A DNA stretch of 64,000 nt from Tetrahymena thermophila SB210 (lineage: Eukaryota; Ciliophora; Oligohymenophorea; Hymenostomatida; Tetrahymenidae): assembly GCF_000189635.1 (NCBI RefSeq), contig NW_002476353.1, forward strand, positions 124,001 through 188,000, given 5' to 3'. The position numbers and the translations under genes were made by a program. Under the pieces are notes generated by a model. That model saw only the letters and a program-made list of their open reading frames with translations, searched no databases and was not told where the DNA came from. This document shows, piece after piece, positions 15,190 to 53,956 of the stretch; position 1 is the stretch's first letter; each line of letters begins with the position of its first letter.

Positions 15190-18100
15190 ATGAGTGAAGA
15201 TAATGAAAAGAGTTTAGCTCATTCTTCATAAAATCAATTTGAAAGCAACTTTAGGAAAAATAAAAGAGCATATACTAATGTTGCTAGATTAGCTTAAAAA
15301 GAATTAATAAAAAACTAAATATAAGAAGAGTAAGTAGAAGAAGAAGATCCTTACGAAAATGAATAATTTTTATAGAGTACATTTAAAGATTTAGGATCAA
15401 AGTTGTATAAATCTTATTTGTATCTCCTGCTTGGTGACGAAGTATGCTATTTGATATTTAAATCTCTTCTTAAAAACATTTTATTTAACTATTATTTCTA
15501 AAGGCGAGCATGAAAAATCAAAAATATGATTTAGATAAAATTATGAAAAGCTACTTAAATAATGGAATAGAATATGAATAGGACTATTTAGATGAAAAAG
15601 ATTTTCATATGGGCGATCTCGTTATTGAATTTCCGAATCCTGATTATTCAAAAGAGTTTATTTTAACAGAAAAGAAAAAGAAGTAAAAAAAACAAGATAA
15701 ACTTGGTGATAAACCTTAAGAAAAGTCTTAAGATAAAGATTATGATGAAAAAGATACTACGAACTTTGATGCTAGCAGTAGAGTGGAAACAGAACAAGAT
15801 GAAAAAGTAGAAAATTAATAGAAAAAAGATTAAGGCTCTAAGATAAAACGTATTAGTTTACATTAAGCTTAAGATGACTTCAAAAAAGCTTTCAGTAATA
15901 AATATTTTGCTTAAATCAAAGGAACTAATATTTAAATCCATTTTTTAAAATAGGTATGGTTGATGCTTCAATTAGATCAGATGTAAGTGAGGGTAAGATA
16001 TTTTAGATATGCTTTGAAAATGCTTTCAAAAAATTAGCTTAATCCCCTGAAGGTAAACCAATAATCAAATAAGAAGACTAAGATAGCCATATAAATGAGT
16101 CTCTCTTTGATGAAGAGGATGATGAAAATGCTTAATATAGAGTATCTGATAAAACAAGTGATACTTTAACTATCTTAAGAGATTTGTTATTCACAAATAA
16201 ATAGGTTACCTAAAAAAAACTTACAAAAGATTTAACTAAAAAAGCTAATCATTTGCTAAATTAAAGAGCAATGAAAAAAATTCTTGATTAAAATAATGAA
16301 GAATAATAAGAAGATTCTAATAGTAATTTATATGATCTAAGTGATATTATATAAACAGATCCTAAAAATGATGAAGAAGAAGATGCACTAAATGCTGTTC
16401 TAAAAAATAATTAGTTTTAACAAAAAATAATAAAAAGTTAGAACATCAGAAAAATATTTAAAGGAGGTAAATTTTTAAGGTTGACAGAAGATAAAAAGGC
16501 CTTTGAAAGAAGTGAAAATTTAACTTAAGACTATCTTACACTAATAAGACATACAACTTGGATTAGGTTAATAAAGTATGGCTTTAAATTAAGACACTTT
16601 TTAAGTTAAGATGCAAAATCTATTTTCACAGTATGTTATGCAACTGATGAGAATTTAAAAATCACAGCAGAAAAAGAATAGATCACCAAAGAGCTTTATT
16701 TGGAATTTACAGATTTACTCTCTTTGGAACCAGTAAAATGATGATAAAAAATGCTTTAAATAATTTTATTTACATGTTTTGAAATATAAAATTAGGTAGA
16801 TGCAACACTTAGACCTTTGAGATTAAATACAAGACTAAGGAGTTTTTCTAGTGCTCAGTAGAATTAGGATGATGATGAAGATGAGGAAGAAATAAATTAG
16901 AATGAAAAAATAACGGGTTATTTAAGATACATTAGAGGAGATATTTAAAGGTTACTTTAAGTTATTGATTATAAAAAAATAGCTAGAGAAACTAATTTAT
17001 CAAAATTAAATCTTGAAATTTTAAGTGAGAAAGCTGTTGAAATAAAAAAAGACTAAAATCTAACCAATGCATAATGGGAAATTTATCTTTAGTATTTAAA
17101 ATAATTAGCTGATAAAATTACTGAATTAAGAGTTTAATATAAGTTTACAAAAGGTGATAAAAGAGCCTAAAGGATTTGTGAAATAATAGAATTTTAATAG
17201 TTTAAGCATCCACTACAATAAATTATAAAAAAATTCTTACAAAAAAGTGAAAATCTAAAGTCTGAAAATAGAACTCTCAATACAGAAGATAGTGTAATAT
17301 ACTTAAAAACTTAAAATGATGAAAAGGATGAAAGTATTCTTGCTAAAAAGTCAAGCAGTGAATTGACTTACATATTTAGGTAAAAAACTTATTTTTGTCT
17401 TTCATTTACTTAATTAAATTTGTTTCCATTTAAAAAATAAATTAGGATAATAAAGGAACATTTAAAAGATATTAAGAAGTACTCATTTTATTTTTTGCTA
17501 TAATTTATTTATCTTATTCAAATAAAAATATCAAAGGGATTTAGAAGAAGTAAGAGATGCTAAAATTACCAAACAGAAAGGATAGAATAAATAAGATATT
17601 TAAAAGGAAATTATTAAACAAAGGTAAGATGACATGAAAAAGCTGAAAAAAATTTACAAAAAGCATCGCTTATTGCAAAATATTATGGAAATAAGAAGCA
17701 AGAGAATAAGGTATTTAATGCTTGAATTAATCAATAACCCTTATCTTTTAGATTAGAAATATGAGCAGGTAAACTATTAACTTATTAAAATATTTAGTAA
17801 AATAAGAATTAAATTTTATATTTTACATTTAACATTTAACAGCTTGAATCAGAAGTAAAAGAACACGAAACAAAATATTCTAAACTTAGAGAAATATTTA
17901 GCTTAAAATAAGATAAGCTCATTCATGTTAAATATATAAAGCAATACTAATACTAAATCCTTGCTTTTAAATACAGAGAGGAGTTTATAAAAGCTCTAGA
18001 TGCTGCAAATTACCCTTATCCCTTTCATCAAAATTTAAAGAATTTGTGGGATTATATGAATATGAACCCTTAAGAAACATATGTAAACTACTTTAGAACC

Positions 18101-21100
18101 CCAAAGAATATTTCATTCCAAAAAAAAGTTAAACTAAACTAGGCTTGGGTTAAATACGAGGTAATTTATCAATTTTATCACAATTTTTTATATAACAAAA
18201 TAATTGTCTTCTAATTAAAACTGATATTTATTGGTAATGTTTGGTACTTGCTTCAATTGAATTTAAAATTATTTCAATTCTATCTTCTTTCAAATCTTAA
18301 ATATTTTCAATAAGATTAACTAAAAGATTAGCAATTTTGTCTTATTGTAATTTTCAATAAATAACTTATTTAATAGAATTATTGAAAGCCTATTACTTTT
18401 TTGGATTGATAGATATTTTTAAGATTTTAAATTAGTTAAATTATTTATAAAAAAACACCTTTTTTGTTGGAAATATTTATTTGTTCATTTAAAAACTATA
18501 TTAGGTAACTTAAAACGGTAAATAATCGTTATTCAATAACATGGAAAGGCTTAAGATTGTAAATTTAGCTATTTAAAAGGCAGTTAATTTATATTATTTG
18601 CAAGAAAAAGGATACATTAAATAATCCTTCTTCTTAAATGATATTTATGATTTAGAAGGAAAGACTTATAAATATATTTTTAGTGGTTGCCCTTTAAATT
18701 ATAAGGAAGTTAAAAAAACTGAGAAGTTGAATAAATTAAGAAATTTTATAATTAACACTGGAAAAAATGAATAACCAAATAATTAATATAGTCCTTAAAT
18801 AGATCCTTTAGCTCTAATAGGTGGAGATAGCTTAAACTAATCTAAAGTAAAAAATACTTTTCAACTTGTTTCATAAAGAATTAATTAACATGTAATACTA
18901 TTTAAAATTAGGAAGCTTTAATGCTACCTGAATCAGAATAAAATCAAGTTAGAAACAAAGAGCAAACAATAGATGATTATGACTATATTTCAGTAGAATT
19001 TATTTGATATGATACCATAATATATATACTAACTTATAAATTTCTTAAAAAAGTAAAACTAGCTAGCTTAGAAAGGAAATTAGAGTTAATAGCCAAAGTT
19101 TATGCTTGAAACATCTTAAGAAGACAAAATTTATGTTAAGAAAAAAATAAAAAATTTGATTTTCGAATGGTCATTTAAAATTAAAATGCCTTGGTATGAT
19201 GTTTTATTACGTTTAATAAAAACTTAATTTCATACATCTATTTATTAAAAAGGTACATTCCCACTTAACAAATTAGAGATTATTATGGAGAAAAGGTTGC
19301 TCTATATTTCTCTTTTTTAGGGTTCTACACTAACAGCTTATTAATTATAGGCATTATTGGGTTAATTATCTTTATTATTTAGTAAATTATTTAATTTATT
19401 GAAGTTTTTTTTGAGCTTAGATAATTCTCCAAAGAGCTTGATTTTTTTTTATTATTTTCATTTTCAAAATTATTTAAAAAAGAAATAAGAAATTATCATT
19501 TTCGAATTAATGAGTTTTATTTTTATTTTTGTAAATTATTTTAATTTTTATGAAAAATAATGTAAAAATGAATGAGAATTAAAAAATATTTGTAAAAAAC
19601 AAATTAAAGTAAATTTTTTAATTTTTTATAAAAGGTAATTATTTGTTTTTTAAAATCCTGCCAATGCAAACTATCTAAATATTGCATTTGGATGCTTGAA
19701 AATAGCTTGGACTTCTAGAACATTGTATAATTGGAAACGTTAGGAAAAATTAATTGCTTCAAAATATGGTTAGCTATAAGACAAGAAAGGGAATGACGAT
19801 GAAAGGAATGTAAATTAAGCTTTTTAATTGTACTTTTTATTATTTATCAATAAAATTAATAATAGGTAGAAGATGAAGAAAGACCTGGATTTGATGGTAT
19901 CTATATGAGGTCTTTAATCACAGATAATATGAATAGTATTTACTACCCAGAAGTATATTGCTTAATTTTTATTGTCATATATTTATCTATACTTTGATAG
20001 TTCAAAAGGCTCGTAAAACTTAGTTTGACAATGCTAACATGTGTACTTATGTTGGGTCTTTATTTTTCTTTTGTTGCAGCTATTTTTATTGTTCCTCAGC
20101 TTTTAGAGAAATTTGTAAAATTAGAAAATTTGTTTATGAAAAATATATAGATTTCATTCATCTTAAATTATATTAATATTTAAAGGCTGATAAAGCTCCT
20201 TTTTTATAAAATGATGTCTATAAAGTAATTATCCCTGGATTCTTAAATGTGATACTATTTTTAATATTTGATGGTTAAGTTTATGGCCCTTTTTCAAAGG
20301 TACTCACTGACTTTGAAAATCATAAAAGTTTTGTTGACTACGAAAGAAATTATGTTGCTAAAAAATTTATTTTCTCCTTCATATCTTTGTCAGGACCTAT
20401 TGTAAATTGCTTTATATTCAAAAAAATAACCCAAAAACAATAATTTATTAATTTATTTTTACTAATTAAAGTTTTTAATTGCTTTTCTAGGCTAATTAAT
20501 CCAAAATGCGTACACTGAAGAAATATTTAGATGCTCATTTTCTAACTGCTATAAGCACGCTTAATATCATTATGCAACTATTTTTATTAGCCTGTTTTCT
20601 ATTAATCTGTAAGAATTTTTCTGAATAAAATAAATTACATTTAAAATTAAATGAAAATAGGTTTGATATTATAGGCCCTAGAATAGTTAGCAGCTATAAA
20701 CAGTATATAAAAAAAAGAAACTAAAATGTTTTGATAACCTAAAATAATAAAGATTTAAAAGAATCAAATATCCTAAATAAAGACTAGCTTAAAAGTGGAG
20801 TAAGCAAAATAAGTGGAACTAATTCTAATTAAAATAAATCAGTCATTGCAGCAGATTCATCTTATTAGCCAGACTCATTTTTTTATGAAGAAATGGATTA
20901 GAATGTGGAATAAATAAAATTTAATGATATTATAAATAAAATTAAAATATCAAAATTATTTAATGATAATGTTTACAAAGGCCTTACTCCTGACTAATAA
21001 AAGATTATAAATAGTTATCTTCAAAAAAATAGATTCCATATTATAAATTTGTACATTAATTAAGAATCAGATAAAGAATAATATTCTGAATCAGCAGATA

Positions 21101-22240
21101 TTTATGGTACAGTCGATGAATATTTAGGTAAAATTACAAATCTTTAAATATGCAGCCACAATTAACATTATGCATTTATAATAAAATAGAAATTTGTTTG
21201 CAATTCTCCCTATTAACGATGTTTGGTATGATATTCCCTCTTAGTTTTTGGATAGCCTTTATATGGAATGTTATCGAACTTTAGGTAAAAAAATATTTAA
21301 TTATTAATAAATAAGAATGCTTAATTTAATATTATATAGACTGATAAAGCCAAACTAATTAAATTTACTTAAAGACCAATCCCTCTAAATGAAGGAAGTA
21401 TTGGAAGTTGGTTAAATTTAATGGACTTAGCATCATATATGTCTATCTTAACAAACTCAATTTTAATTACATTTCTTTAAGGCTAAATAAGTAAAATATT
21501 TAAACAAATATCTACAAAATTTAATAAGCTAATACTTAAATTTAAATAAATAAATAAATTTAATAGATGAGAATAACTTGATTCAAATTTTCCTTTCTTT
21601 GATTGTATTTAACTTTTTGTCTAAATTTACCTAATCTGCTAGTAATTTACTAAAAATAAAGTTATTTATATTTATGTAAAAATTTTCTTTTTTAAAGTTC
21701 TTGGTGATATCCCTTATAGACTATCAAATCTTCTAAAAAGATAAGAATATATTTTAAGATCTACTGTTGAAGTATTTAAAAAAGTAGCAACACCAGACCC
21801 AGATAAAAACTAAAACAAAGAAGAAGATGAAAACCAAGGTAAAAAACATAAAAAAGGAGTTAAAAAACTACATATTGAGAATCAGTAATTCGATTAGTTG
21901 ACAGAAGAGGAAGAATAAAGAATGAATAGATTAAGATATTTTATGAACAACAAATATGAAGCAAGGCCTGTTTTTAAGATATATAAAACAATTTGCAAAC
22001 CGAGAGAGTAGTCTTAGCTTCATGATAGCATGAATCAAGTACAAAATTCTTTTAATTTATTGATTATAAAATAAAAATTAAACACCTTATATTTTAAATC
22101 AGTCTTTCGAAATCTTATCAAGTGACGATGAAAATATTATTGATAAGAAGAAAAAAAATAAGGATTAAATCTCTAAATAAGAGCAAGTTGTTTAAATATA
22201 GCCAATGCTCTGGTTAAATTATAAATGGTACTGTCATTAG
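15190..22240 (+). CDS. Anoctamin (TMEM16) family membrane protein, Ca2+-regulated scramblase or channel type
   Basis: ATG 15190 opens a long acidic, Gln-rich cytoplasmic N-terminus (to about 19,190). Introns at 15442-15503 and 15895-15953, and about ten later ones, keep the frame. The family signature follows the splice near 19,200-19,260: WYIPTQQIRDYYGEKVALYF and then FSFLGFYT before the first membrane helix. Next come RPGFDGIYMRS (about 19,886), further hydrophobic helices at 20,010-20,110, 20,225-20,285 and 20,355-20,420, and the EYLEICLQF helix split by an intron at 21128-21189. In the TMEM16 family, four acidic Ca2+ ligands lie at the two Glu of EYxE and at the Glu and Asp of the next helix. 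Here EYLE and NVIELQ-TD retain all four. Final helices lie near 21,410-21,475 and 21,580-21,635. The frame does not stop at the usual family C-terminus but continues, via an intron at 22241-22296, into the pseudokinase feature. The true 3' end is therefore uncertain. Confidence 0.85.
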
Positions 22241-22296
22241 GTATTTTTTTTCTACTTTCTTTATAATTTTTAAGTTTAGTGTTAAAAATATTTCAG

Positions 22297-25200
22297 GGAG
22301 TAATTCAGAGACCGATCATGATGAAATAATAACTGGCTTAACAGATTCAAGAATATAAAAACGTAAAATAAATACTTAAATCCAATTTGCAGCTGAATTC
22401 TTTTAATTAATGCTTTATTTATATTATAAATTAAATTAAGAAATTCTATGAGTAAACAAAGGCTTATTTGCAGATTGTTAAAAACGTTAATATTCATAAG
22501 ATACTTTTAGAAAAAATAGAAAAATATAACAGAAAAGTATAAGTTTTCAATATAAATGCCAGTAAGATTAATTTAACTTTATTAAATACATTTTTATCTG
22601 TGGTGTCTTTTAAATAAAAGTTTGGGCTGATTAATTTAGGGTAGTTGACAATTACAAATCCACTGAGTAGGTATTGGAAATTCTTTATAGATTAAGGAAT
22701 GCAGAATAGAATTAGGAGAAAATGGAATATGACAAAATAGATGTTAACATTAACTTGATCACTTAAAGGGTAAATGATTAAGTTTTAAAACAACTAAATA
22801 AATATATTAAGCAATCAATGTTTATTATTAAAATTAGGATATTGATAAATATTTTGTTCCTAGAGGACCTCGATTTTAATTTTCTGAAAGCTTTCTTAAA
22901 GCTTCTATTTATCACAAATTATTAAACTCTATGTAAACAATAAATATGAAGAAAACAATTCTGCAGAAATCTCCTAATGAAATATTTTAGTCTCCATACT
23001 TTGAAGAAAAGTTGCATTAAGAAAGATTAGTATGGGAAATAATAAAATAAAGATTTCTTATAGATATTTATATGCCATAATCCCTGAACCAAACTCCATA
23101 GCTAGATACATGTATTCCTTCACAACTTTACCCAATAATATGTAATTCATATTCCCACTGAATTAAAATAAATTTTGTTTTTTTATTATTTTGTAAGAAA
23201 ATTGGAAAATACAGGTAAATAGCTAGGAATAAATGTTATCATTTTAAATTGTAAAATATGATGAAAATTTTGGAGTTCCTCTTTACTTGAACGAAGAAAC
23301 TGAACTAACTATGAGGACGCATTCAACTGAATTGTATAACAGCGGAGAGCCAGGATTTTACATAGGTATTTATTCAATCAAAATATTCAGAAAAATTATT
23401 AATTTTTTGAAGTTTTTTTTATCTAAAATTTAATAGATTTAATGTTAGTAAAATATAAATATATAAAAATAATTTTTCATTAGAATGTTTACTCCTTTTA
23501 ATTATTTAAGTAGCTAAAATTTTATTATAATTTTATATTTTATTTTTTTTATAGCATTTTAGTTAATTTTTATTAATCTAAGAATGAGTAAAATATTATA
23601 AGAAAAATAGAAAAATATAATTAATTGTAAAAGTAGATTCAAAATCATCTCTTAATTTTTATGAATCATAATATTTGTATTAAATCCATTCTTAGTAATT
23701 TAAACTGGAAAAAAACATCTATAAGGAGTTTTTTTAAAAAAAGAATAATTTAAACTATAAAATCAAATTTCTTTGAATTAAATAAAGTTTGTTTTATAAA
23801 ATATGGCTAAATATATTTTTTAATTAAATAATAGCTAAGTAGAATGTTTGCTACATTTACCCAGAGTCTATGTTTAACTTCACAACTAGAGATTAATGCT
23901 ATGTGATTAGATAATTTAATGAAAAATACATTTGCAATTTAGAAGATGCTGTTAGAATGAGAAGAAAAGATAATAAATTTAAACCATATTCTTAAAATGA
24001 GTTACTTGGGTTTTTGAATTAATGGCTAATAAATTTAGGAGGGTTTTAAGATTAGTATTAATTGTATCACTCCAATATAACACCTCAAACATTGATTTAA
24101 ACTGCTAGTTCTAATAGTGAATATAAAGTAAATTATTAATTAATTGCAAATGTTTTGAGTTTAAATAAATGAAAAATAATTAATTTAGTTGATAAATTTC
24201 TAAAATTTAATATCTGGTGATATTGATATCCAACTTTTAAGATAAATCACAGAAGAAGAAATGATATTTATAGCTCCAGAGCTTATAACTACATTTTTCT
24301 CATCAAAAGAAAAATAAGTTACAGTTAATATGTATTCAGCTGACCTTTATTCATTGTGTATGGTTTTACTTTATATGGCTACTCTAGGAGACAGCTAAAC
24401 TGAATTTTTGAAGTGTAAAGAAGCTGCATTAAAAGTTGCATTCCCAAAATAAGTAACTAAGCAAAACGGTAGTATGAACTCTTTGGCATCCTCTATGAGT
24501 GATGCTTCTTAAATTATGCAAACAAAAAAGTCAGAAAGCTTATCAAACTCTTTAACAACAAATAACTTTTAGTAATATTTCAATTCATTTAATTGATTTT
24601 ATTTAATAAAATTTTTTTAAATAAAAGAACTAAAGAAAAGAAAAAGAATCCGTTACAAAGTACTAGTAATCTTAGTTTGCTTATGGCTAATAGAACAGAT
24701 CAAAAAATGAAAATTGATAAAGAAATGGAAGAAAATACATTTGATCCTAATCTTGTAAATAATAAATAAATTGATAAATCAATTATTGAATTAAAATTTG
24801 AATTTAATAAAATAGAGTGAAGGATAAAATCTAATTCGAATATTAGAGAATTACTTTAATAGCTAAAGTAGCAAAGTTATGAGAGAAATGTATCCAATAT
24901 TGTTTCAAGTTATAAAATAAGTTGTCCTATAATCAGATCCAGAATTACGTCCTAGCAGGGAAAAGCTGTTAAATATGATTCAATTAAATTAGAAATAGTA
25001 ATTTTATGAGAACTAATAAATATTGAGAAATTGTTTCTAAGATTTAGATTCTTTGAGTAAATCAAACATAGAAAATGAAAAGAAATCTAGATACTAAATT
25101 TCGAACAATTTATATCAAAAGGTTTTGCTGTATAATAAAATTTCTTTATTCCCTCAAACTATTAACCTTTTAAAAAATCACCATTTCAATACTGAAATAC

Positions 25201-28200
25201 ACATGAATTTTGAAGACATTAGGAGACAGATAGAGTCTTAATTACAATTGATCATAGCATATATAGGTAAATATATATTTAATAGGAAGTAATTAATATT
25301 TTAATTTAAAATTTTGTAGGAACCTATGAGCTGTAGGCAGCTTTAGGTCAATTAGAGTTGTGCAAAGAATCCATTGATAATATTCTGCAAGGAAACTAAT
25401 TATTTTGGTAGAATAGTGAGATGTTTAAAACAAAAGAATCTCCTATTTCAGGAAACATTAATCAGAGAAAGAATTTTTATGATCCTAAAATACAATAAAG
25501 TGAAAGAGATATAATAACAAGATTTTAAAATTATTACTTTTACCTGAAAGCTTATGCATAATTCCTCATTATGGATCTTAGGTACATTGAGCCTGAAAAT
25601 GTAAACGATAAAAGAAAAGAGAGAAGAGAGAGAAACGAAGAGACAGAAAAGGCAATACCAACTTTATTTAAAAATTGCTTACAATGTCTGGATAACATAA
25701 TATAAACTATTGTTAATGAAAACAATGACAATAGAGAAAAAAATGGAGAGGAAGAAATTATTTTGTAAAATTTATTTTATTGAAACATTTTAATAATTTT
25801 AAATTAAAAATAGGTATATATAGACAGTCATTTTAAAGATAAAATTACTTATTGATTCAGGTTTAGAAAGGTAGTGCTAAAAATAGTTTAATACAATTTT
25901 TAATCAAATCACATCCATAAAATCTAAATTATCAAAATAAGAAATAAATAAAATATTAATTGATTAGTTCTACTTTGAGATTACCATTCTTGAGTCTGAA
26001 TTTTACATGTAACAAAGCAGGTATAATGATGCTCTTAATGTTTTAGAAGAATATAAAAAAAATACCACACGATACAAAAGAATCAGCTAATTTAAGGAAG
26101 AATATCTGGATAATAATGTGAAGATTTTAAAAGATTAAATGATATTTTATTCACTGTATTCAGATCTCTGCATAGTTACAGAAAACATTGACGGCTATTA
26201 AGAGAAATATCAATTATTAAAGAGAAACTTTTTTGGCATGATAAATAATGCAAGTTATTCATTTTGTTTCTTTTACGATATACTAGAGTAGCTTTTCCAT
26301 TTAATTGAATTGGATTCCTTAAAGTATGATATCTTATATAAGCTACAAAAATGTCTATAGTTTGTTTACATTACAAAATATGCTCCAGAGAAGTAACAAG
26401 GCTCAATAAGCTCCTTTTTAGAAATGAAAGCTTCTGAAGAAAAGCTTTTCAATCCCTATTTCTAATTTCTTATTGGAAAAGTAATGATTATTATGAGACT
26501 TTACACATTATTTATTTTTTATTAGTCGTTTATAGGTATGGATAGTCCTAGAGACAGAGAAGCAGGATATGTCTTTCTATACAGAGCATATAAAATTTTG
26601 AATTTTACAGTAAGAGATTCCTAAAAGAAGGCTTAAATATAAGAAAGGGAATTACTTTAAAATAGAGGCTCTTTAATTCTTTAATAGAATGCAGAAGATG
26701 ATTAAGGTGATATACCTGATAGGCAATACTCTGACTTTTCAAAATACATAAATTCTCTTGAAACTGATAAAACAAATGAAAAATAATAGAAGCTCAAATT
26801 TGTTTTTATTTATAATGATTAATTTACTAAAATAGTAGAAGATATTTAGATGAAAATGGTTGAAAAATCTTATTTCTTTTAGCAAAGATTAATAGAAAAT
26901 ATCCTGTATTGTGTCGATGTAGATTTAGACAAAGATTAAATAGAGATTATAGAAAAGCTCAATTATTTATATAGAATGAGACCTTAGAGAAAAATATCTT
27001 CTATGTACTTTTCAACATCGTAACATTTTTTTGTTTTTCAAACTAAACTAAACTAAATTAAAATAAATTAAATTTGAATAAAGAAATATAGAAAAAAAAA
27101 AGAAGGAAATTGAGGAATATAGAAAAACAAAAAAGAATACAAATAAAGACGTGATTTTAGAAAACAATGAAAGTATAAGGATTGAAGCAGCTTACATTCA
27201 TTAATATACTGAATTTATGAGGAAAGCTAAGTTATATCTTTAATTTAAAGTAAAAAGTTTATTAAAAGCTATCTATCTAACATTTATTTTAATATTTTTA
27301 ACTAAATAGAAATTTGATTATGCTTTGACTTAGTTAAAAATTTTAAATAACTTGATTTAAACTTACATTAAGAACTATGAAAGCAGTAAAAAGAAATATT
27401 TAAGTAAGCAAAAAAAGAAACAAAATATAGACGACTAAAATGATTAAGACAAAATCTTAGATGATTTGTCTGTTTTTGCTGAGAAAAAGCAACTTACTAT
27501 CAAAATAATAATTGATCAAATAAGCGTTTTAAATATGATTGCTTTATGTTATTACGGAATGCATGATATTAAGTAAGCTAAGACTAATGTAATGAGAGTA
27601 TTTAAATAAGAAAATATAGACCATTTAGGTCCTAATTTTACCATCATAAGGAATATTAAAGGATGCACTCTATTTGCCTTAGATTACAGGTATTTTTATA
27701 CAAATTAAAATAAATTTGAATAATTTAATTTAAAAAATAAATTCAGATCTTTAGGTATATTTTAGTCAAGTTTAATGCTAATAGAAATAATTGATAGGGT
27801 TTTGCAGAAAGTTGGCCACTATCCTTCAGTATCTAAGACAAAAATATTGCAAGATTTATAGATTCTAAAAAATATTGTATTGTTTGAGGCAGGATAGCTT
27901 GAGCTCTATTATTCTTTTGATGAGTTTAGAGAGTTTATATAGAAATAAAACATGCCAGAAGATGGAAACCTTGAGAAAGGAGAATAAGATGATGATCAAG
28001 AAGTTTTCATAGATGAGTAAAAGATAAAAAACAGAAAATCTAGACCCTCTCTTTATAGATCAAATTAGTTTAATTTAGAAGAAGAATTGAATTAAGAGAC
28101 ATAGAATCAATATAAAATGAGGGGATTCTATCTCCACAAATAATCATAAACACTGATTAATTTACTAAATTCTCAAAATATCTAGCAATTTAAATTACAA

Positions 28201-30980
28201 CAATATGAACTAACTTTCTTTTTGTCTATTGTCTTCTTAGAATTAGGAAGATATAGTAAATCACTACTTGCTTTTAAAAAAGTTCTTTAGTTTGATTACA
28301 ATTAGTTTCTCATAAATAATGATAATATCTCATAAATGCAGTTTCTCTATGAGAAAGAAGAAGTCAGAAACATCAAGATCAGTTTTACTTATGCACAAAT
28401 TTTGCTATGTATGCACCAATACAAACAAGCTCAATAAGAATTGTTGAAATTAAAGGAATATTGTGAAACTACATTGTAAACTAAAAAAGAATAGATGTAG
28501 GATACAAATATTTATTATAAGCAAACTTATGATTCAATAGAATAAATATAAACTTTTATCGTTAGCTACTTGTTCCTTACAAGGTATGCAAATCATATTT
28601 ATTTATTTATTTCAACATAAAAATATGATTAATCTTTCTTAAAAGTATTAAATTAGGGCAGGAAAATGTGTAAGAGAAATTAAACGAAGTTGTTAATTTA
28701 AATAGAAAACTTACACGTCACTAAAAAGATACAAAAGATGAAAGAACATTCTTGCTTCTTTAAATTTCAAACTGCTATTATACAACTGCAATTTATCAGT
28801 ATTTTTATTTTTTTTATTTTATTGAAAAAATTAATTTATTTTTTATTTAGTGTAAGCTAAATGTAGCACAGACAAGCCTTAGAAACAGTAAGAAAAGCTC
28901 TAAACATTATAAATAAACTCATGGGAGTTAGAAAAAGAAAAGCTAAAGAAAATGACTTTAAGACAAGAATTTCTGTGAAAACTTTAGTAAATATTGAAGA
29001 AGATGATAATGATGATGATGGAGATTAGAGCCCATAATTAAAACTTAAAAAGAACTAGCCTAGCACTCTGTTAGAAATATAGCATAAAGTGGATCCAAAA
29101 TAAAACATTGATATATTGGAACAGAATTTATTTGAAAATCTGATATTAATTGACAACTTTAGATGTACTTTAGAGCTTTCAGAGCTTGAATTGGAATAAA
29201 ATTTATTTTCAGGCGTTTAGCTATATGAGTTATATTATAAAACATAAGATCTGATTTCATCAGTAAATTGCAAAAAAATACTTTTTTTTAATTGAAATTA
29301 CATTTATTCAATAGATAAAAATCAGAAAAGGGGAATAGTCATGGTTCTACTTTAAAATACTTATAATCAGAGTTCAAATACTGCTTAAATTGCTATCAAA
29401 CTAGGGAGGAAATAGTGTATTCGGTCTCATCGAATACTAGAAAAAAATAAAAACTGAAAAAAATTAAAACTTTGAGAATTAGGTTTACAATATCTTTGGA
29501 ATAAATACTCAAGGAGACAACTTTAGCGAAGCAGATGAAAAAATAATTTTAAAGCAACCAAAGGTACAAAAATTATTAAAAAGATTTTATTCTGAAAAAC
29601 TAGATGAAGAAATGGAGGGTTATGGAATTTAAGGAAAAATTAAAGTTATTCTAGCTTAATTTGAATCTGAATTAAATGCTAAAGATAGAAATGTATCATA
29701 TGATGAAGTTAAAAGAATTATATATGATGATTTAAGGGTATGTGAAGAATTACTAAAAAAAATATATTCTTCAAATGTAGACATAAACCATTCAGCTAAT
29801 GAAGATTTTGCATTATTAAATATGTCTTATGGCGAATATTTACTTTGTAACATTTTTGAAATAAATTTTTTATTAAAATTTTATGTTTATTTTTAACAAA
29901 TATATTTTAGAAGCCAGAGATCTTTTAGGTTCCATAAGCAGGTTTAGATAATCGCTTAAGATATTTAAACAATCAAATTAATCGTTTATTTAGAATAGTG
30001 TAGCTGTTATTTATTTAAAAATGGCGAAAATGTAAGATCATATAATAGCTTTAATCCATTAAAATATCGAACTACTTTTAACTCTTGATATTTCATCAGT
30101 TACCTAAAAGATATAAGGCAATCTCTTTGAATTCGCTATTAAGAGGATGATTATGATGGATGAATCTGTCTACAAATGCTTTTTCGAATATTCAACAAAC
30201 AAAATAGTTATCTTTTTAATTGATACTCTAATTAATGTATTTTATTATTATTATTAAAAATTTTATTCAAACAATTAACTTTAAATTTATTAAAATTGTA
30301 AAATAAAGATTAAATAGCAATTTGATAAAAATGATTCAAATGAAGAGCAAAAGAAGTTAGTTTATTATTAAAAAAGTAAATAATAGCTTGAAATGGAGTA
30401 GCAAGTGAGTAAGATAACAAATACTAGTAGAGACATATTAGAATAGATCATTCATGATAAAGAGCAAAAAAAATCAATCTCAAAACAAGGCAATCTAGTA
30501 GAGGATATTTATAGCAAATCCTTAATTGAAATAATTTAAAGTAGAAGATCAGTTCATGGACTAAATATTAAGTATATGCAAAAAGACAGTGAGATCATCT
30601 TTGAAAACAAAAAAATCAAGTATCTTCGTATGGCTTTAATGGTTCTAAAGCAGCTTAACTGTTCGCATACTGATTCCTTCAAAGAAGTTGAAAAAGAGTA
30701 TATGAATGCCCTTCAAAGCAACTTTGATTACAGGGAAGAAGAGTATTATCTGTAATACGATAAAGATTAAGAAATAAACATGCAAAGAAAAACCTATAAC
30801 AAAATATTTTAGTTAGATTAAGATGATGAAGAATCCTAAGAACACGGTAGCAACGGACACAATTAATTTAGTTAAAATAAATCTAAATAGGGCAACGATG
30901 ATTAAAGTGAGCTAAGTCACAATATTTATTCTGTTGATTTTTTCAGTGCAGTAAGCTCGCCCTAAAAGATAAAGAAATGA
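22297..30980 (+). CDS. Pseudokinase plus TPR-like helical protein, probably the C-terminal part of the anoctamin gene
   Basis: Reading from the anoctamin exons, successive in-frame exons lead to a protein-kinase fold at about 23,200-25,000. A hinge-like CYVIRQFN is followed by a catalytic-loop equivalent YHSNITPQTL (24,064-24,093), where HRDxKPxN is expected. LISGDIDI (24,210) replaces DFG. FIAPEL, a typical F-helix (YSADLYSLCMVLLYMATLG) and ELRPSREKLL are intact. The catalytic Asp, Lys and Asn and the DFG Asp are all replaced, so kinase activity is unlikely. The rest is helical, with TPR-like repeats near 25,330, 27,530, 28,210 (LGRYSKSLLAFKKVLQFD) and 28,390, and ends at TGA 30978-30980. 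No intergenic-sized gap without coding exists between 21,700 and 23,363. If separate, the gene would need to start near ATG 22316 or inside the roughly 460-bp intron at 23,364-23,826. TPR repeats often bind partner proteins; the partner is unknown. Confidence 0.65.
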
Positions 30981-35861: not shown

Positions 35862-38800
35862 TCAAGCTAATTCAAATCCTTGGCATTCAAATAAAGCTTT
35901 TCTCAGAGCATCTTCAAGCCTTTCTTTTGTAGGGTAGTTTGGAAGATCAATAGAATTTGCACAAGTATGAGAAACAGGAAGCCTTTCTACTTTTTGTGTT
36001 AGAGTTATTGTAATAGGGAACTGTTTAAAGCCTCCATGAGGTAAATTCATACTTCCTGTTATTAAAAAAATAATTATGTTTAAAGATTAATGTAAATAAG
36101 GTTTTAGATAACCATGCTGAAAATCCTAGCTAATAAATTAATTTTGAGAAATAATTACCTGTTATGAAGAAAATGAAACAAGATTTTTCATAATTATTAA
36201 AGGATTCTAATATTTCGAAGAGCCATTTAATTTATTTATCATTTTTTGTGTATCCTTATAACTGAATAGTCTCTTTAAGTTCAGGAACTATAAAATTAAT
36301 CATATAACATCGATTAAAAATATGTCATTTAAATTTAAATAAGAATGAGGTGAGAATAAAAAATTTACTAGAAATTTCTGGGTTACCACTAAATATAAAA
36401 GATAACATTTGTTCATCTAAAATCTGAAGAAGATCTTCGCAAACAATTTCTTTGAAACCACTAGTTATAGCATGGGCTTAATAATAAATTTCTCTGATTA
36501 ATTTAGCATGGCAAATACTCTTTACATATTCTTTCTTGTTTTAGTTACAAACCTACATGTTTCTACCATTTTTCTTCAACTCAATTTCATACTTTTATCC
36601 TGCATAAAACTTGTCATACCTTTTTATATTTATATATGTTGTAAATTTTAGTTTAAATATATTTTATAAATACGCAAAATTTATGTCTATTTCATCAGCA
36701 TTAATTTAATTTTTCAATAACCAATTCAAATTCTTGTACAACTCAGGATCAATTTCTTCTATATCAGATATTACAATCTTTTTCTTTAAAAATAATTTCA
36801 AGAACGGCTTTGCAAAATTTGCTTGTACAGGATAGTTCTCTAAAAATGCTTTTCCTAGCAATATACCCAAAAATTTAAAGTAGATTAGGTGATCAGGAAC
36901 TAAAAATGAAAAAGGATTTGGCATATAAGTGTAATTTTTTTTGCTTTATACAAATAATCCGAAATTCGGGTCAAGAAGTTAATTAAAAATCAAGCTAAAC
37001 CACTCTCTTCTAGGACCACCTTCATCAATACCAGATTCATCTGTTTTTCAAAAAATTAATATTAAAAATAGAGCTCAATTTTTAAAAAAAATGTAAATAA
37101 AACAATAAGAAACTTTTACATTTCCATTTGACATACAAAGTATTTAAGCAGAGTTATTCACTTTTTATAGTCATTACAGCAGGAATACTCTCCTCTACCA
37201 TTTTAGTTCTGTCAATCGTGATCGACGAGTTTGAAGTATAATTATTATTTATATTCTTTTTTACTCTGAATTTCGTTTAACTAACAATAAGCATTTTTTT
37301 CAAATGGAGAGAATAACGGTTTTAAATATCTTTTAAAGGTTAAGTTATAATCTTAGCGAAATCCTAAGGTGTCCTATTTTTCATTATTTTAAAATAATTT
37401 GTACATTTGCTTTTTGAAATTCGCATTAAAAAAAATAAAGTTCATTATGCTATTTATCTATAAGTATGACTAAATTTTATTTAAAATTTACTAGTATTTT
37501 TTCAAAAGAAGCTTAATATTATCGTTGTTATAGTATGAAATAATATTGTTAAAAATATTTTTTTTGTTTCATGGAATTTTACTCGTTGTCTTGTAAAATT
37601 TATTTCAAACATTACAACAGACATTTTTTTATCGATTTAAGTATTTGTTTATTAAAATATATGCTAAAAAAGAGTGAATAAGTGAAATAATCAAAAATTC
37701 AAATTACCTCACGATGCAAAAGTAAATCACGTTTTCTAAACGAATGAAAAATTTAAATAGCTCATGATATCTTACAGCATTGCTCAAATTTAATTCCTAT
37801 AGAGATATTGAATTTAATCCAAGAAAGTCCTCATCATCAAATCCTTCTTCCAGGTTATGAGCTGTTTTAATTAGTTTATTGCTATAATGTTCTTAATTTC
37901 CAAATTATTCTTTTTTATCTGAATTATTTTAAATATTTAAATGATGATTTTGAAGTAAAGAAGATGTATTTTCTTCCTTTTCTTAAAGACTAACAGAGGA
38001 TACAGTCTGGTAGATGTGATCAGCATAATTATAATTATGATGCAGCTAAGTGTTTTTATCTTTTCTCTCTTCATCTGCTAAATCTACTTCTTTAGGTAAA
38101 TCAGATGTTCTGGATAAGGATTATCTTTACAGAGTTAGCAGAAATTCGTTTTAATCTATTGAACTATCTGAAGGAAAATCAAAGCATTCTTCGACATCGT
38201 CTAAGTCTTTACTTCCTTTGATGATACTATCTACTTGTGAGTAATGGTTTGAATGAATTATTTTATATAAATAGAAGAGTGATTGATACGATTTACTAAA
38301 GTAAGAATAATTGCTAAAGTATTTGCTTTACCTATCATTATATATCAAACCTGCTTGCAATGAAATACTATAATACTTTGAAAATATTAAAATTTAAGAA
38401 TACAAATTGAAGCAACCTGAGTCAAGTAAAATTTCTTCATATTTTTCTTTGATACTTTCCTCATAGTTGCGAAGACACTCTAAAAGTCTTTAATAATAGT
38501 TATCAGCAGAGATATATTCTTTATTACTAAGTATTTAGTTGTTAAAGGTATTATTTTTCTTAAGCAGGTCAATGGGTTCATTTTCAAATTCCTAAAATTA
38601 GATAACATTTTGTAGAGGGGCATTTAGATGACTCTACTCCTAATTTATTTATTTATTACTTTAAATATTATCATCAATTATAGGTTCTTCATTAGTATGA
38701 GTTAGATGCTACTATATATCATTAAATATTTTTCTTTCTTCAGTATTAAACTCATTTAGTTTAGGTTTGCAATCAAATATATTATTAATTATTTACTGTT

Positions 38801-41800
38801 TAAATTAAACTGGAAATTCTGATTGAACCTTTTATTCAATCATAATTTTAAATAAATTATTCATATATTTTATTAAATAAAACTGCTTGTCGCATTTGGA
38901 GTGAAGATTATCAACATATTTGCTTGATTATTATTAGAAGGAGTTGTAGTAAACATCTCTATCGTTATTGTCTATCTTTTCTAGATTTTGGGGATTATTT
39001 CCTAAGTCTGATTTCATTTACTTATATATCCTTTTTATGCACTCTAGGAGTTTATTTACAACAGGTTCTATCTACTCTACTATTACGTTAGATATTTCCT
39101 TAATTAGAGAAAATATTATTTCTTTGTTTAAATTTATCATTATCTTTTCAATATGGAAATTTATTTTAGCTTTGTAATTTGTGCTGTTTAAGTCGTTCAA
39201 AAGCATAGCAGTGTAAACTTTAATGAAATCTTAGTTTAATATGAATTTATTTATAGAGGATTCTCTCTTTTTTAAAGTTTATTCATCAAAAAATGGTTCA
39301 AAACTCTCCTTAAAATATAAGAAACTTCTATCAAACCAGAGAGTGTAAAAAGTAACAAATAATTTATAGTTACTTTTAATTGTTTTTTAGTGCTAAATAC
39401 TTTTTATTGTGTATTCACTTTTTCCCATTTCTCTAATAAAATTTTATATCATACTAGACTATTTTTCATCCTTATAGTTCCTATTTATTTTGCTATCTAC
39501 TGATATAAATTCGTTCTCTTTATATCTTTAAATATTATCAGTTTCTTTAGTTTATATGCTAAAATCATCGCCACTGTCTAAGAATAATTCATAAATACCT
39601 TCATTATTACTAATAAGTAAATTTAAGAACAAAAGATATCTATTTTATAACATTGTTTTTAATTCTTCAAATGAGTAGTTTTTCCTCTAATAGGAATTAA
39701 ATTGGAGTTAATTATTTTATTCTCCTAAATCTTATAAATTATATACAGAAGATTTGTTTTAATTATTTTCTTCAAATTATTTTTATTTATTATTTTATAA
39801 AATTTCCATTTTTAATTTCATCTATTTCATTAAATATTTTCTATTTTCAGGATGTTAGAAAAATATTAAAAGAAACTCGTATTAATCGCTACTACTTTAA
39901 ATAGTAGCTAAATAATCTTCTTCACAGCATAATTATTCTTACATCGTAAGTGATACTTCGATTACTTATTTTAAAGAAAGAAATTATTTTAAATATTGAA
40001 AAAAAAATTTTAATTTTAAATTTAAATATAACTTATAAATTTTTTAAAAATTGAATGAATTTATGAAAAAAAGCAGTAAGATTTGTTTGTAAAATTTTAG
40101 TTAAAAAAAATTCAAAATAAAGTTTACTTTAGTTGGGAAATTCAATCAGCAAATCTTAAAATTATTCACCAAAAATAATATCAAAATAAGATTTTCTAAG
40201 TTTGATTTCTGATTTTTAATTATTCATAACTGAATAAATGTTAATAGTTTGATAATTAATCAACGAATCTTCTTCTTTTATTGAGGTCGGAGAAAGGAAT
40301 TAGTTTATAAGTTGCTTAGTGCTAATAGAAGTGTCTACTTTTGTTTTGTTTTATTGCAATTATTATTTAACTTTTTAATTGTATTAATTAATTTTTTTAG
40401 TTTAATCTACTATGATATCAGCAATCTTTTTATCAAATTTATTCTTTGAAGCTTTTTCTATAGTGTATGGGTTTCTATTTTATAAAAATGGGTATTCTTT
40501 TCCTTATATTAGAATCTTTAAATGGTTTGTTGAATCGTCTTTGATAGGGAGAACATTTAATAAGTTCTATCCAGGAAATAGTTAATTAAAAAGTGTTATA
40601 AATGTTTTGACAATCTAAGCATTAGATTCAGACACTTTTTATAGAGATGTTACTTCATTTTAAAGGAAGATATCGTTATTGAAAGGAGCAAAATACTCAA
40701 ATAGTTCTTTAACAAAAGTAAAAGAATTGTTTGCTAAGGTTTCTTTAATTCTCTAACAAATGTATGAAACATCGTAATAAAAATATTTAGCTATTACTGT
40801 TAATATTTTGTTGCGGATTTCGCTAGCCTTTACAGGTCTCAATAATTTTTTAACTTCTTATATATGTTTTTATATCACTTCTTGTAATTATTCTTTTTGC
40901 TATTCATCATTGGCTAACTTATTAGTGTAATAATTAATAATTATTTCTTTATTATTTTCATATATTTCTGTTAGTAATCCATCTTCTTTTTCTTTTTCTT
41001 CTTCGTCTGAGCTAAGCTCTTAATCCTTGAAAGCCTCATATGATTTAAATTTAGATGAAGATTTTTTATCGCTTGCTTGCTATTTACTTTGAGAATTAGA
41101 TTTAGGAGAGTCATCTAAGATACTCTATTTTTTCTCTTCAGCTAATAGTTTTTTAATTGCTGTTTATTCATTTTTGTCAATGTCTAATCCTGAATGAATT
41201 TACTTGTTATTGTTTCTTTTATTCGAGAGTATTTTAAATAGTTGTTTATTTTCTATGAAATCTTTTCCTTTTTAGTTCTAAATTTTGAGTTGAATCTGTT
41301 AGTATTTAAATAATGCTATTTTATTTACTTCTTTCAATAAGCTGAACTTTGTATTTTCAGTTGGTATTTTTTAGAAATATTTTTATAAAGAAGCTTACAA
41401 ATTTTACTAAGAAAGAGGAAATTAATTGTAAGAGTTTTTCCATTTAGTTTTGTAGTATGTATTAGTCATAATATACTAAGAAGAGTCGTTAATAATTACT
41501 TATATGTCTCTTCCCATAAATTAACTTAGAGACTATTAATTGCAAAATTTATTTTCTACAATCCCACAATATTTTATTCCAACTTAAAACACATAATTTG
41601 TAGGAATGGCTGCTCCATCTATTTTAAGTCCGTACTGCAATTCCTTTAATCCTTCAAACAAATCATTTTCTGATGAAGATTACATATTAGTTAACTCACT
41701 GATATCACATTTTTATAAATTTTCTTTTTCATCATCTTATCTTTTTATTATTTATTGTTGCTTCGAAAATTCATTAAAAGATTCTTACAATTTATTATTT

Positions 41801-44800
41801 GATTATGAATCTAAGCCATTTTAAAGATTATTTTAAGAACTTTATTATTGCATAGAAATAGGTTCTTAGTCTTCACTTTCTTATTAACAACAAGTTAGCA
41901 TTTATTCATTGAGTTATTCTTACTATGCTTCTTATGTTCTATCTTGGTCTTCAAGAGCAAAAGGAAATTCTTAGCTGACTAGCTATATTTCATCTATTCT
42001 ATTTTAATCTAAATTAATTTGATGGATATTATCCATTTATGAAATAGAGAGATTGTTCAAATTAGTATCTTATCTATTAGACTCTACCTATTATTCTTAT
42101 ACTTAATTTGTTGTTTTTTCTATTAAGTTTTAAGTTGAATTATTGTTGCTTTGATTATTTTATTATTTAAATATATTATTTAGTGCAGGAATATAATTTT
42201 GCATAGATGTCATTTATAAGCAATATTTAAGCTCCTTCAAGTAATCGTATATTTATGTTTAATTAAATATGTCATCAAACCCTAAGTTATATAAGCAGTT
42301 TTTCAGATAGTTCTTATAGAATACTGCAAAAAGAGAAGGAATATTCAAATAATTTTAAAAGTAATAAAGATCATCCTATTTTTGGCACTAATTGTTTGAA
42401 AGTTATTTACCATCCCATAACTTAGTTAAAATATTTTGAAGGAAACGTTTCATATATTGTAATCCTTATTCAAACTTCAAATGAGCTGATGTTTCTTATA
42501 ATAAATCAATCATGTGTAATTATTAAAAGAGTTTCTGTAAATTTTTAGTACTGACAAGCCAATCAGATATTGACTGGTCTATATAATTGATGTATAAATT
42601 CCAATAATCATCAATTAAATTAAGATTATTGTGGTAAAGGGAATAAATTGTGAAATACAGTTTAACCAATCTTTTTGTAGCTCCCATAGAATCTTAAAGC
42701 ATAAAATCAATTAATATTTTTTAATATTCAGGTATTTTTTATCCAAATTCCACCAAGCAAGGATAATATTGAAGTAAGTTCAATATAATTTTACCAAAGC
42801 AAAAGTTATTCATACAGTTAGTTTCGATTTCATCTACTAAATAATTATTTGAGCCAGCTAGTGTATCTTATTATTTCGCCATTCCTTCATAAATTTATCC
42901 CTCCATCTCATTATTTTGGCAAATCTCAAAAAGTTAATAAATTACTTTTTACTGATTTTCATCTAATTTTATTGGATAACACCATTTGTTTCTGTATTTT
43001 TTCTTTATTAAGCATTTAAGCTTCTGCTTTTTTTATTTGTCAAAGCTCATAATTTGATAAAAAGCCTTCATAAAATTTTTTGGACCCTTCATAATTAGTT
43101 ATCTAAATTATAAAAAATTTATTAATTGTAAGTAAAATGTAATAAAAAATAAAATAAAAAGTGATAATTTATAATAAATAAAAAGATTTAAATAAGAATT
43201 ACTTTGCTTCGTTGTAATATGAATTTAGATCTAAAGGCTAAGCGTATTTTTCACTAAATTAAAATTTTTGGTAGTTAGATTTTGAACAAGTTAAAATATG
43301 GTTTTTGATAGAGAATTCAATATTATTGCAGTAATTGTATGGAGTATTAAATATTTCGTATATTATTGAATAAATAACTAAAGATAAATTATTTCTAAAA
43401 ACTTCAACTTAAGAAATTTTAATATCTCTAGCTATTTGCAGAATATTATAATGTATAAATAATTTTATGCTTTATTCTCTTTGTACTAAGATTAATTAAA
43501 AGCTTAGTTGCATAAATCTTTGAGCTAAATTTTATTGGACTAAACTAATCTTTTTCTAACACTAATTTTACAAATAAACACTCTCGTTTAAATAGAAGTT
43601 TTCACTATTAACCTGGTCTTAGCAATATTGAAATATGCTAATTGATCGAGACATTATTTTAAAAGTTTATTTTATTTTCTTCTCTTCACTCTCTTTGATT
43701 AATTAAAACTAAAGATAATATGAAATGACTGAGAGAGTAATTATGATGTTGATTATTTTACATTTCCTATCTTAGATTGCATTTTAAATACTTTATTACT
43801 AATTTTAATCACTACTTTTTAAAAATTCTATATTTTCTTGAATAGTTTTATTGATATTTTAAATTTCTGGAATCAACTCATCTTGAATGTAATTTAAAAC
43901 AGTTTTACAGTTTTAAATAATTTTCTCACTTTAATTAGAATTAAGAACAGTGATATCAAGAAACATTAGCTTATTTTTTTTAATTTTTTCATTAATTTTT
44001 TAAATTATTGAGGCAAACTATTGTTCTTTCTTTTTTTCATCTTCTTCTTACTATTTTTTATTTATTTCTAGGTCAATAATTTCATTAGATTTTTATTAAG
44101 CAATAGTAGCTTTTTCATTTTAATTTATTTATTCTGCTATTTCATTTTGTAATTCTGAAAATTCTACTTAACATTCACTTTCTTTTGGATTTTTTCTTGG
44201 ACTATTAGATTTATTTTCTGATTTTTAGTTATCCTAAACTTTTATTTATTCATGCTTACTATCAATTTTAAGATCATCTTTGAAAGTGGGATGATAAAAA
44301 TTATTCATAAATTATTTAAAAGAAATGGCTTCATATAAGTCAAACTATTCTATGGAGTCAAATAAAATTTCAAAAAATTAAATTGCTTTTAACCTGTCTA
44401 TTTTAAGTCCAATTTATTTTTCTTAAATTTTGATCATTATAGCTGAAACATCACAAGTTTCTATTTATTGCAAATTATTTAAAATTATTGATAACAAATA
44501 TTTTAATTTGATAAAGTAAATTTCATATTTTTATTTTTTCAAAGTTTCTCTCTACTTAATATGCTCTGCTTTACTAATTTCTAATGAATTTTTTAATGTT
44601 TAATTTTCATTCTCCATTAAATTACTGTTATGTTAATTTTTATCTTGCAAATAAAATTATTCTTATTTTTATTAAAATTAATCAAAATCACCATTTTGAC
44701 TAAATTTTTTATTTTAATTAATCTCGTACTCCAGCTTATCTGCATAAATTTGCTCTTCTAATTCAATCTATTCAGCGTCATCATCTTTTTATGATTAATT

Positions 44801-47800
44801 TATATTTTTTAATGCATCTTACTAGATTTATTATTCTTAGTCATTTTAATTTTAAGAGTTAGGTCTCTCAGCTGATATTTAATCTATGACATCAACATTT
44901 TTAGAGTCATGATTTATGGTTTGACTATTTAAACTATTTTAATCTGAATTTAAATTTTCAGGTGAATTTTAAGTTGAATTTTCTTAATTTGAGTTTTTAT
45001 TAATTGGATTGTTTTCTTCTGATTCTAAAAATTCATCATCATCATCAATGCTCTATTCACTTTCAAAACTTTTAGAAAAGTAATCTAGTTAATTATTGTC
45101 TTGGTTTATTTAAATAATTTCTTCTAAGTTAATATCTTCTTCTCCAAGAGTGCTAATTTCTTCTTCAAAAATATCAATCATACTCTCAGATGACAATTAG
45201 CTTAGTGTTGTATCATCGAATTAATTATCATCTTAAAAAATTAATTAATTATTGTTAATATTCCTCCTTTAGCCTGAAAAGACATTTTCTACAGACTCTA
45301 CTAATTAACGGGTATCCTCAAGCAAAGGAGTTTTTTCATCTGGTTTTTCTTTTTTAGTTTGTACATTTTCTTATGATTAATCTCTGCCTGAAAATCTATG
45401 CATTAAAAATACAGAGAATTCTTAAAAAATAAGCTGCACAAAACTGCTCATAGCTAGACAGCTTTTTTTAGAGTATAAATTAACATCCAAATATCCAATA
45501 TTAATGTTGCTTGAGCCTCCACCTCCAGCACCACCAGTTATAAAATTAGGTTATTGGCTTTAGTTTTTAGCAAAAGCTTCTTTGCATTACTAAATATGAT
45601 AAAGTGAATTTTTAAACAGATGAATAATAGAGTTAATAAATGAATTGCTTTCAATATATAATACTTTCTTTTTTGATTTAGCATTGAATTGTGATTATAA
45701 GTGAAAATGCATCATTTTTTGAAGAGGGTTAAAATATTTCATGCAAACAAATTAATTTATAACTATTTTTTAATTAAAAGTTGTGCTTTTAGATTTCAAA
45801 AATAAGATTAATCCATTCTTTCCTTTATCTTATTTATTGCCATTTCTATTTTTTTTATTATTTCTTTAAGAATTATTAATTGCAAAATTATCATCTTTTT
45901 ACTATTTAATTTGCTATTCTTACTAAAGGGTTTATTTTTGCTTTTTAAAAATTTTAGGCGCATCAACAGAGCCGAAAAAAACATAATTAAAACTTTATAT
46001 TATTGAATCGCGTATAAACACAAAGGCTTGCATTTACTCAGCACATGCACCATGCACGTCAATAGATAGACCAAATCTTGTTACATTTAAGAAGCACTTA
46101 GTTCTTTTATAAAAAATTTTTAGCTGCTCTTCATCATTTATAAAATTTATCAAAGCTTATTTTCTACTATTTTCTTCTAAAAAGTAATGTAAATTTCTCT
46201 AGATTAGTATGTCATCAAGTTTAAGCTTAAAAAGCTCTTTTACATATTTTCTTTAAACGCTAGCCGCTATTTAATAGCAGTTATTAATATTATTTAAATG
46301 ATATCTTTGAAAATATTTTGTGATTAGCTATTTTTTACTAGAATCGCTCAGCTATTTTATTATTTTTTTAAGAATGAATGATATTGTCTCTATATTTCTG
46401 GCTTCATTTACTAACTACGCTTCTGCTGAATTCTAAATTCTTGACAAAAAACCTTCTTGATCAAAGTAAAAGTTAGAAACCAAAGTAAAATTTTAAAACA
46501 GCTACTAAATCCTTTGCTTATTTAACATATAATTTCCATAAGAAAACTCGTTAACAACTTTGTCAAGGGAAATGCAAGATGAGCTTTAATTGCTTTTTGA
46601 TTTTTAATTTTCTAAGCCCCTGAATAATATTTAAAGTAAAGGATTAAAATCAACATCTTCAGAAGTATTCGAAGTGATTATTTCGACAAACCTCAGCACA
46701 GTAACTCTGATATTGCTCAGATAGGAAAGAGAGGTGCTCAGGCCATAAGTGAAAAGATTATTAAGAGAGAGAAGGAGTCTTAGAAGAAGAAATGAATGCT
46801 TCAATATTTCTTCTTTAATCTCCTTTTTTTCAGAGGGTGTTGCGTTGTTATTACACAAAGTCATAGTTGTGTCAATATATTATTTAGTATTATGTATTAA
46901 GAAAGTGTACTTAGCATTCAGCATAGTTTTATAAGTTTACTTGCAAATTAAATTCTCTTTTTTGATATTATTAATGTAATAATTTAATTCTAACTCATAA
47001 TCCATTTCAATTTTTTCAACTATTGCTTATAAAACTCCGCTTTTAAGTAACTAATTTCTAAGTTAAAGCTTAATCCCTGGCTAATTAAAGAATTAGGTAT
47101 GCATCATTACTGTACCTTTATTTAGGTAAATCTGAGGATAGTATTTTACATATAAATTATAAATCTTATTATTTTTTTCAAGATCTTACTTACAGTTTAA
47201 GCTAAAAGGATCTGTTTTACTTAAATTCATAAAAATATCATAGCAAAACCCATAATCCTTAATTAAACTTTCAGCGACACTCAAAATTATATTTTTTCTT
47301 ATTTATTCTACATCCTCTTATTCAACTTATGGATCTTTTTCAGATTTTTCTTCAATATCCTAAGATTAGCTGCTATTCATTTAAGGATTTTGTTTATCTT
47401 CTTCTATTAAAACAGGTTGAAATAAAGGAGTTTACTTTGAAGTAACAATAAATTCAATAATTTAATTGCGCAACACTTCACTACTGTGCTCTAAAAGCAT
47501 AAGAAAAGTAAAAGCAGCATGACGATTTTTGCAAGTTAAAATTTATTAAAATAATTAATCAAAGTATTAAACCCCCTTCAACTAAATTATTTCTAATTTT
47601 TTTTAATCACTAATCAGGCTACTACAGTTTATGACAAATCTATGAATAAAAATATCAGTTAACTAATTATTATTTTAAGTGTCTAAGCATCGATCAAGAA
47701 TCATAATAAAAATATCTTTGAATAGATCTGTGATTGTGATTCGAAATTAATCATTGTATCTCCTAATTAGCTCATTATATTAAATTTAGCTTATTATTCC

Positions 47801-50404: not shown

Positions 50405-53956
<3,552 letters not shown>

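Follow-up and report, generated by a model that had tools for sequence, protein, structure and literature searches.

Gene model of an anoctamin locus

We analyzed a stretch of 64,000 nucleotides (nts) of Tetrahymena thermophila SB210 (contig NW_002476353.1; C184:124001-188000 of a 101 Mb genome in 445 contigs), which is referred to as the window and has a G+C (GC) content of 22.6%. On its + strand lies a gene, at positions 15190-30980, that probably encodes a real, unusual fused anoctamin. The explanation that we hold to be probable is one gene for a TMEM16 core whose acidic Ca2+ site is retained, followed by a tail of ~2,490 residues with a dead kinase C-lobe-like module and tetratricopeptide repeat (TPR)-like repeats.

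Unconstrained decoding with an exon/intron model returned a single + strand gene of 43 exons. For this full model, 264 kb of the genome, including the window, served as training set (51 genes and 385 introns of median 63 nt in the last round). A leave-out model, trained on 160 kb from two other contigs only, gave identical limits and 42 exons; thus, both trainings reproduced exactly the span given in a preliminary description of this DNA. After homology-based repair, the refined gene has 45 exons and encodes 4,051 residues (~4000 had been proposed), with a single, terminal TGA. Between 21,700 and 23,363 the inferred introns measure 56-78 nt, in agreement with the earlier statement that no gap there exceeds the size of an intron. 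The coding sequence contains 185 TAA, 79 TAG, 80 CAA and 18 CAG codons, which fits genetic code 6 (TAA and TAG encode Gln, and TGA is the sole stop).

Because ab initio calling dropped codons of membrane helices, the membrane exons were repaired using anoctamins of the same genome and canonical splice sites, and five exons were changed. For the exon of transmembrane helix (TM) 6, the TM6 sequences of paralogues and the PF04547 score favour a spliced pair, 20472-20608 and 20661-21127. Two other readings were rejected: the ab initio one (20614-21127) and an unspliced exon at 20491-21127, which suggested the loss of the TM6 acidic residue. The unspliced reading underlies the second PDB search, the kinase tests (hhalign, HMMER and N-lobe) and the paralogue BLAST described below. 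The features of the gene are listed in Table 1.

Table 1. Features of the + strand gene at 15190-30980, in window positions (aa, amino acids of the refined protein)
Feature	Positions	Strand	Basis
Predicted cytosolic N-terminal region, exons 1-11, aa 1-936	15190..18992	+	Decoding; BLAST against paralogues of the same genome
Anoctamin/TMEM16 domain, aa 969-1560, including its C-terminal end	19054..22038	+	PF04547; PDB Anoctamin-10
Homology-repaired membrane exons	19253-19381, 20001-20114, 20186-20401, 20472-20608, 20661-21127	+	Anoctamins of the same genome; splice sites
Putative Ca2+-site codons NLFDIIGP (TM6), DEYLE (TM7), NVIELQTD (TM8)	20604..21345	+	Alignment; TM6 by eye
Linker exons 23-26 (numbering before final repair), borders uncertain	22103..22769	+	Coding log-odds 8.1, 6.7, 3.2 and 6.4 nats
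Two well-coding exons ahead of the long intron; position of a kinase N-lobe, if any	22838..23365	+	Coding log-odds 19.0 and 18.8 nats
Inferred intron of 469 nt, GC 13.2%, the longest of the gene; possible hidden gene boundary	23366..23834	+	
Kinase C-lobe-like module without catalytic residues	23835..25266	+	hhalign against 13 kinases of the same genome
Kinase-like motifs	HSN 24068, INF 24192, APE 24273, DLYS 24342, DPELRPS 24936	+	
Putative TPR-like C-terminal tail, aa 2380-4051, with TGA at 30978-30980	25320..30980	+	TPR_2 below cut-off; TPR profile enrichment

Anoctamin core and C-terminal tail

The repaired protein matches the Anoctamin family over the complete profile (PF04547, profile positions 1-460, 316.1 bits, E 5.2e-94, gathering score 28), and the unrepaired model scored 247.6 bits. 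The complete domain directly supports the anoctamin identity assigned previously. A PDB search placed Anoctamin-10 first (5oc9, 1.1e-21), followed by ANO6, ANO1, nhTMEM16 and afTMEM16; a second search, with the intermediate TM6 reading, gave 2.9e-27 for Anoctamin-10. The segments DEYLE and NVIELQTD align to segments of ANO10, ANO6 and ANO1, and NLFDIIGP resembles NNLFEIGIP of ANO1, a correspondence made by eye; the codons of NLFDIIGP and NVIELQTD are each interrupted by an intron. The aligned positions of TM6-TM8 are those which we take to be the Ca2+ ligands of TMEM16 proteins. All five ligand positions carry acidic residues, one of which is Asp. The core may have Ca2+-gated scramblase or channel activity. 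Hydrophobic segments are confined to aa 1000-1453, plus one weak segment at aa 3032-3050; since nearly all of them fall within the core, the tail is probably cytosolic.

Six further anoctamin genes from this genome were compared (one each on contigs C220, C394, C443 and C113 and two on C81), some of whose predicted starts may be truncated where their loci end. The BLAST comparison used an earlier model of 4,062 residues, in which the numbering past aa 1223 is shifted by 11. N-terminal residues ~396-529 match the C220 protein and residues ~730-849 match the proteins of C220, C81 (C81a) and C443; at an E-value of 1e-3, none of the six is similar to the target past ~aa 1571. The gene at C113:88161-93441 encodes a second fused anoctamin of 1,342 residues, with ankyrin (1.1e-7) and anoctamin (1.1e-90) matches, a B-box-like stretch below the cut-off (5.9e-5) and an end that looks EF-hand-like by eye. 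On C394, a + strand predicted gene (102946-103686) whose start looks to us like a kinase C-lobe (VDIWAIGV) is convergent to the anoctamin gene; kinase matches are common in the genome (139), and this adjacency may be due to chance.

The module that follows the long intron was compared with a profile of 13 kinases of the same genome by hhalign. The score was 51.2, with a probability of 90.6% and a P-value, as computed by hhalign, of 1.3e-6; YVIRQF, HSN, INF, APE and DLYS were all in register. Among 110 windows of predicted proteins, the sole comparable score (49.6) came from one that overlaps the kinase-like region, and the other 109 reached at most 28.3. An insert of ~118 residues separates DLYS from DPELRPS; the latter segment beats 214 of 220 random segments, though its addition moved the hhalign score only from 39.2 to 39.4. 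The catalytic motifs are changed: HRD is replaced by HSN, DFG by INF and, according to the alignment, the catalytic Asn by Thr. With HRD and DFG replaced in this way, catalysis is unlikely, and the "pseudo" status proposed for the module is supported.

Several results speak against a kinase origin. No Pfam kinase match was found to E 10 with the HMMER filters on, which drop most matches above ~E 0.1. A plain HMMER search with the profile of the same-genome kinases yielded 2.1 bits, a value reached by 105 of the 990 shuffled sequences reported out of 1,000, and the region had no match among PDB sequences to E 10. The N-lobe was not detected in either of two tests: it scored 8.9 in the first, where the best of 150 controls reached 17.4, and 150 of 220 controls were equally good in the second. 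One may thus suppose a single gene whose middle module is not derived from a kinase, the order of the motifs having arisen by chance in a helical scaffold. We consider this rather improbable, given a profile-profile score far above those of the 109 other windows and five motifs in register, to which the DPELRPS segment adds a little. Profile comparison therefore supports a putative pseudokinase-like C-lobe, so that half of the kinase fold claimed earlier is supported.

In the C-terminal part of the tail, TPR_2 produced one match (22.3 bits, E 1.2e-4) below its gathering score of 27. With a profile built from 18 TPR stretches of the same genome, the 95th percentile of 240 controls was exceeded in the tail by 9 of 26 windows and in the front part by 2 of 40; these windows overlap and only one surpasses the best control. 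A home-made count of TPR motifs, an uninformative test, gave 0 matches in the tail. AlphaFold modelling of a single tail exon (27748-28473) resulted in a predicted local distance difference test score of 38.9, which gives no usable fold. Two pieces of the C-terminal half have no NCBIfam match to E 0.1. In a search of the genome with two pieces (344 and 424 residues), no second locus was matched at the sensitivity of the tool. No relative of the core or the C-terminal half was confirmed in viral contigs (three of eight scans) or prokaryotic contigs (one scan), a survey that is silent on ciliates. The TPR-like repeats of the preliminary description are thus weakly suggested by window enrichment, with TPR_2 falling short of its threshold.

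One gene or two at the anoctamin/tail junction

The preliminary description had argued from the fact that all exons can be joined in one frame without TGA. The frame can indeed be joined; as evidence for one gene, the argument fails. TGA is the only stop, 22103-22838 alone admits 707,488 stop-free chains with at most five introns, and all 24 same-strand neighbour pairs predicted by the same model can also be joined without TGA, at costs of 8.6-236.1 nats (natural-logarithm units). An open joined frame is therefore no evidence here. We used a measure that does discriminate, the nats paid for inserting a gene boundary, ~15 of which are the prior of the model in each case (15.1 for the leave-out model). 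Gaps of 480 bp or more were taken as realistic, none of the 24 same-strand gaps from a sample of the genome being shorter.

Other genes were found in the window, three of which served for calibration. A HECT-type E3 ubiquitin ligase is encoded by a very large gene (35862-49600, - strand; ~4,100 residues predicted; PF00632 5.1e-90 on the last 420), next to which lies a gene for an FtsH/Yme1-like AAA and M41 protease (51003-53956, - strand; 649 residues predicted). At 55544-61190 (+ strand) lies a sphingosine-1-phosphate (S1P)-lyase-like pyridoxal phosphate-dependent decarboxylase gene (~55544-57442), apparently misjoined by the full model to a downstream Gln/Asn-rich gene. A Sec23/Sec24-type coat protein gene occupies 62646-64000 on the - strand and continues beyond the end of the window.

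Under the full model, the cheapest split cost 18.6 nats at 21500-22900 and 15.1 nats at 22900-24250, rising to 31.6 and 36.4 nats when the gap was forced to span 480 bp or more. The corresponding values of the leave-out model were 14.6 and 11.0 nats, and 18.4 and 26.6 nats with the gap; within the models, the log-odds that 21700-24300 contains no intergenic base were 15.0 and 11.0. Inside the genes identified by Pfam, the full model charged 20.8-57.1 (S1P-lyase-like), 17.0-26.2 (FtsH-like) and 3.9-22.6 nats (HECT) for a split; the leave-out values were 13.0-35.5, 15.6-15.9 and 10.9-17.6 nats, respectively. These interiors are those of predicted genes, the cheapest splits lie mostly outside the Pfam match itself, and the cheapest one within the HECT gene (37202) had been called a gene boundary in the initial full-model decoding. 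At the two tandem boundaries (S1P-lyase-like/Gln-rich and HECT/FtsH-like), a split cost 0-2.1 nats under both models. The junction between anoctamin and tail thus behaves as the interior of a gene, unlike the two tandem boundaries, and a single gene is well supported by coding statistics, if not proven.

Several observations weigh against a single gene. Five of the six paralogues (C220, C394, C443 and both on C81) end within ~0.8 kb past the domain, and a gene boundary would therefore be expected near the domain end here too. Just past that point lies a stretch of weak coding (22297-22769), where the second linker exon scores 6.4 nats in an alternative frame against 6.7 in frame; the exon borders in 22241-22838 are ambiguous, 12 listed chains lying within 5.3 nats of one another. 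At C443:19659-25214, the anoctamin gene is followed after ~1 kb by an apparently intact, separate kinase gene in the same orientation (Nek-like in our own reading), which counts a little against fusion, as anoctamin and kinase are unfused there. Moreover, the gene finder makes false merges, as judged by Pfam identities: the full model joined the S1P-lyase-like and Gln/Asn-rich genes and the leave-out model the HECT and FtsH-like genes. Since each model wrongly fused one of the two pairs, merging alone is not proof. Finally, the leave-out split with a realistic gap, at 22452, lies only ~3 nats above the prior, and some leave-out splits with shorter gaps are cheaper than the prior.

All of this would be accommodated by a tandem pair of genes, in which the anoctamin would end at ~22.0-22.5 kb and a separate pseudokinase/TPR-like gene would start at ~22.9 kb. 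We regard this arrangement as unlikely. Coding signal is positive in frame in all six exons within 22103-23365, the GC content of 22322-22838 (22.4%) is equalled by only 8 of 132 intergenic windows, and the full model charges the 31.6 nats given above for a realistic gap here, whereas the two tandem boundaries of the window cost next to nothing. A break within 23366-23834, separating an anoctamin with an extra domain from a C-lobe/TPR-like gene that starts at ~23870, appears very unlikely. That interval is long and AT-rich, and detectable kinase similarity starts right after it; introns of at least this length, however, account for 10 of the 388 predicted in the genome sample, this one counted. 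A break there would leave a gap of ~280-370 bp, where none of the 24 same-strand gaps falls below 480 bp, at a cost of 21.8-26.9 nats (full model) or 18.9 nats (leave-out model), and the kinase-like protein would begin without an N-lobe. With coding continuity directly supported by these statistics, we favour one gene, which would be read as one transcript.

Proposed function and relation to known systems

The fused protein would begin with ~970 cytosolic residues, continue with an ANO10-like core and end with a cytosolic tail. On binding Ca2+, the core would open and act either as a channel or as a scramblase of lipids. The tail may bind partners without phosphorylating them, the dead kinase lobe acting as a binder, and may anchor the protein to a membrane of the cortex or of an organelle. 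On the basis of this architecture, scrambling or ion flow could thereby be coupled to bound signalling or cytoskeletal proteins, and the tail may act as a signalling platform. A more specific possibility, which we put forward tentatively, is a Ca2+-regulated TMEM16 protein hard-wired to a pseudokinase and alpha-solenoid tail, in which the dead kinase would switch the core, either allosterically or by docking. If the fusion is real, the movement of lipids or ions would be tied directly to a signalling scaffold within one protein; together with the ankyrin/B-box anoctamin on C113, it would suggest that ciliates have built modular signalling anoctamins.

In its accessible part, one article states that some members of the superfamily are of much greater size and could represent fusions (PMC5868767). 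A possible lead, TgDAT1, was set aside, as nothing in the accessible part of its source identifies an anoctamin (PMC13298984). Among the matches listed from the open-licence literature, neither a ciliate anoctamin fusion (titles and starts of abstracts) nor an anoctamin-pseudokinase fusion is described. The regulation of described anoctamins involves Ca2+, lipids and separate partner proteins.

With Anoctamin-10/TMEM16K (5oc9) and the TMEM16 family, the target shares the complete PF04547 domain and the acidic residues at the Ca2+-ligand positions. TMEM16 chains in the PDB are listed with 667-975 residues (one YFP construct has 1,217), whereas the target has ~4,050 and a long tail. The other anoctamins of the genome have the same domain, and those of C220, C81a and C443 also share N-terminal parts, but none of the six shares the tail. 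TRPM6 and TRPM7 likewise combine a channel with a C-terminal kinase module; the channel is unrelated, however, and their alpha-kinase is active, whereas the motifs are lost here. The P4-ATPase-guanylate cyclases of the alveolates Toxoplasma and Plasmodium, as presented in the accessible parts of two papers, also unite a P4-ATPase-type membrane part with a signalling module in a single polypeptide, although they belong to other protein families and their signalling part is a cyclase (PMC6592433, PMC7858053).

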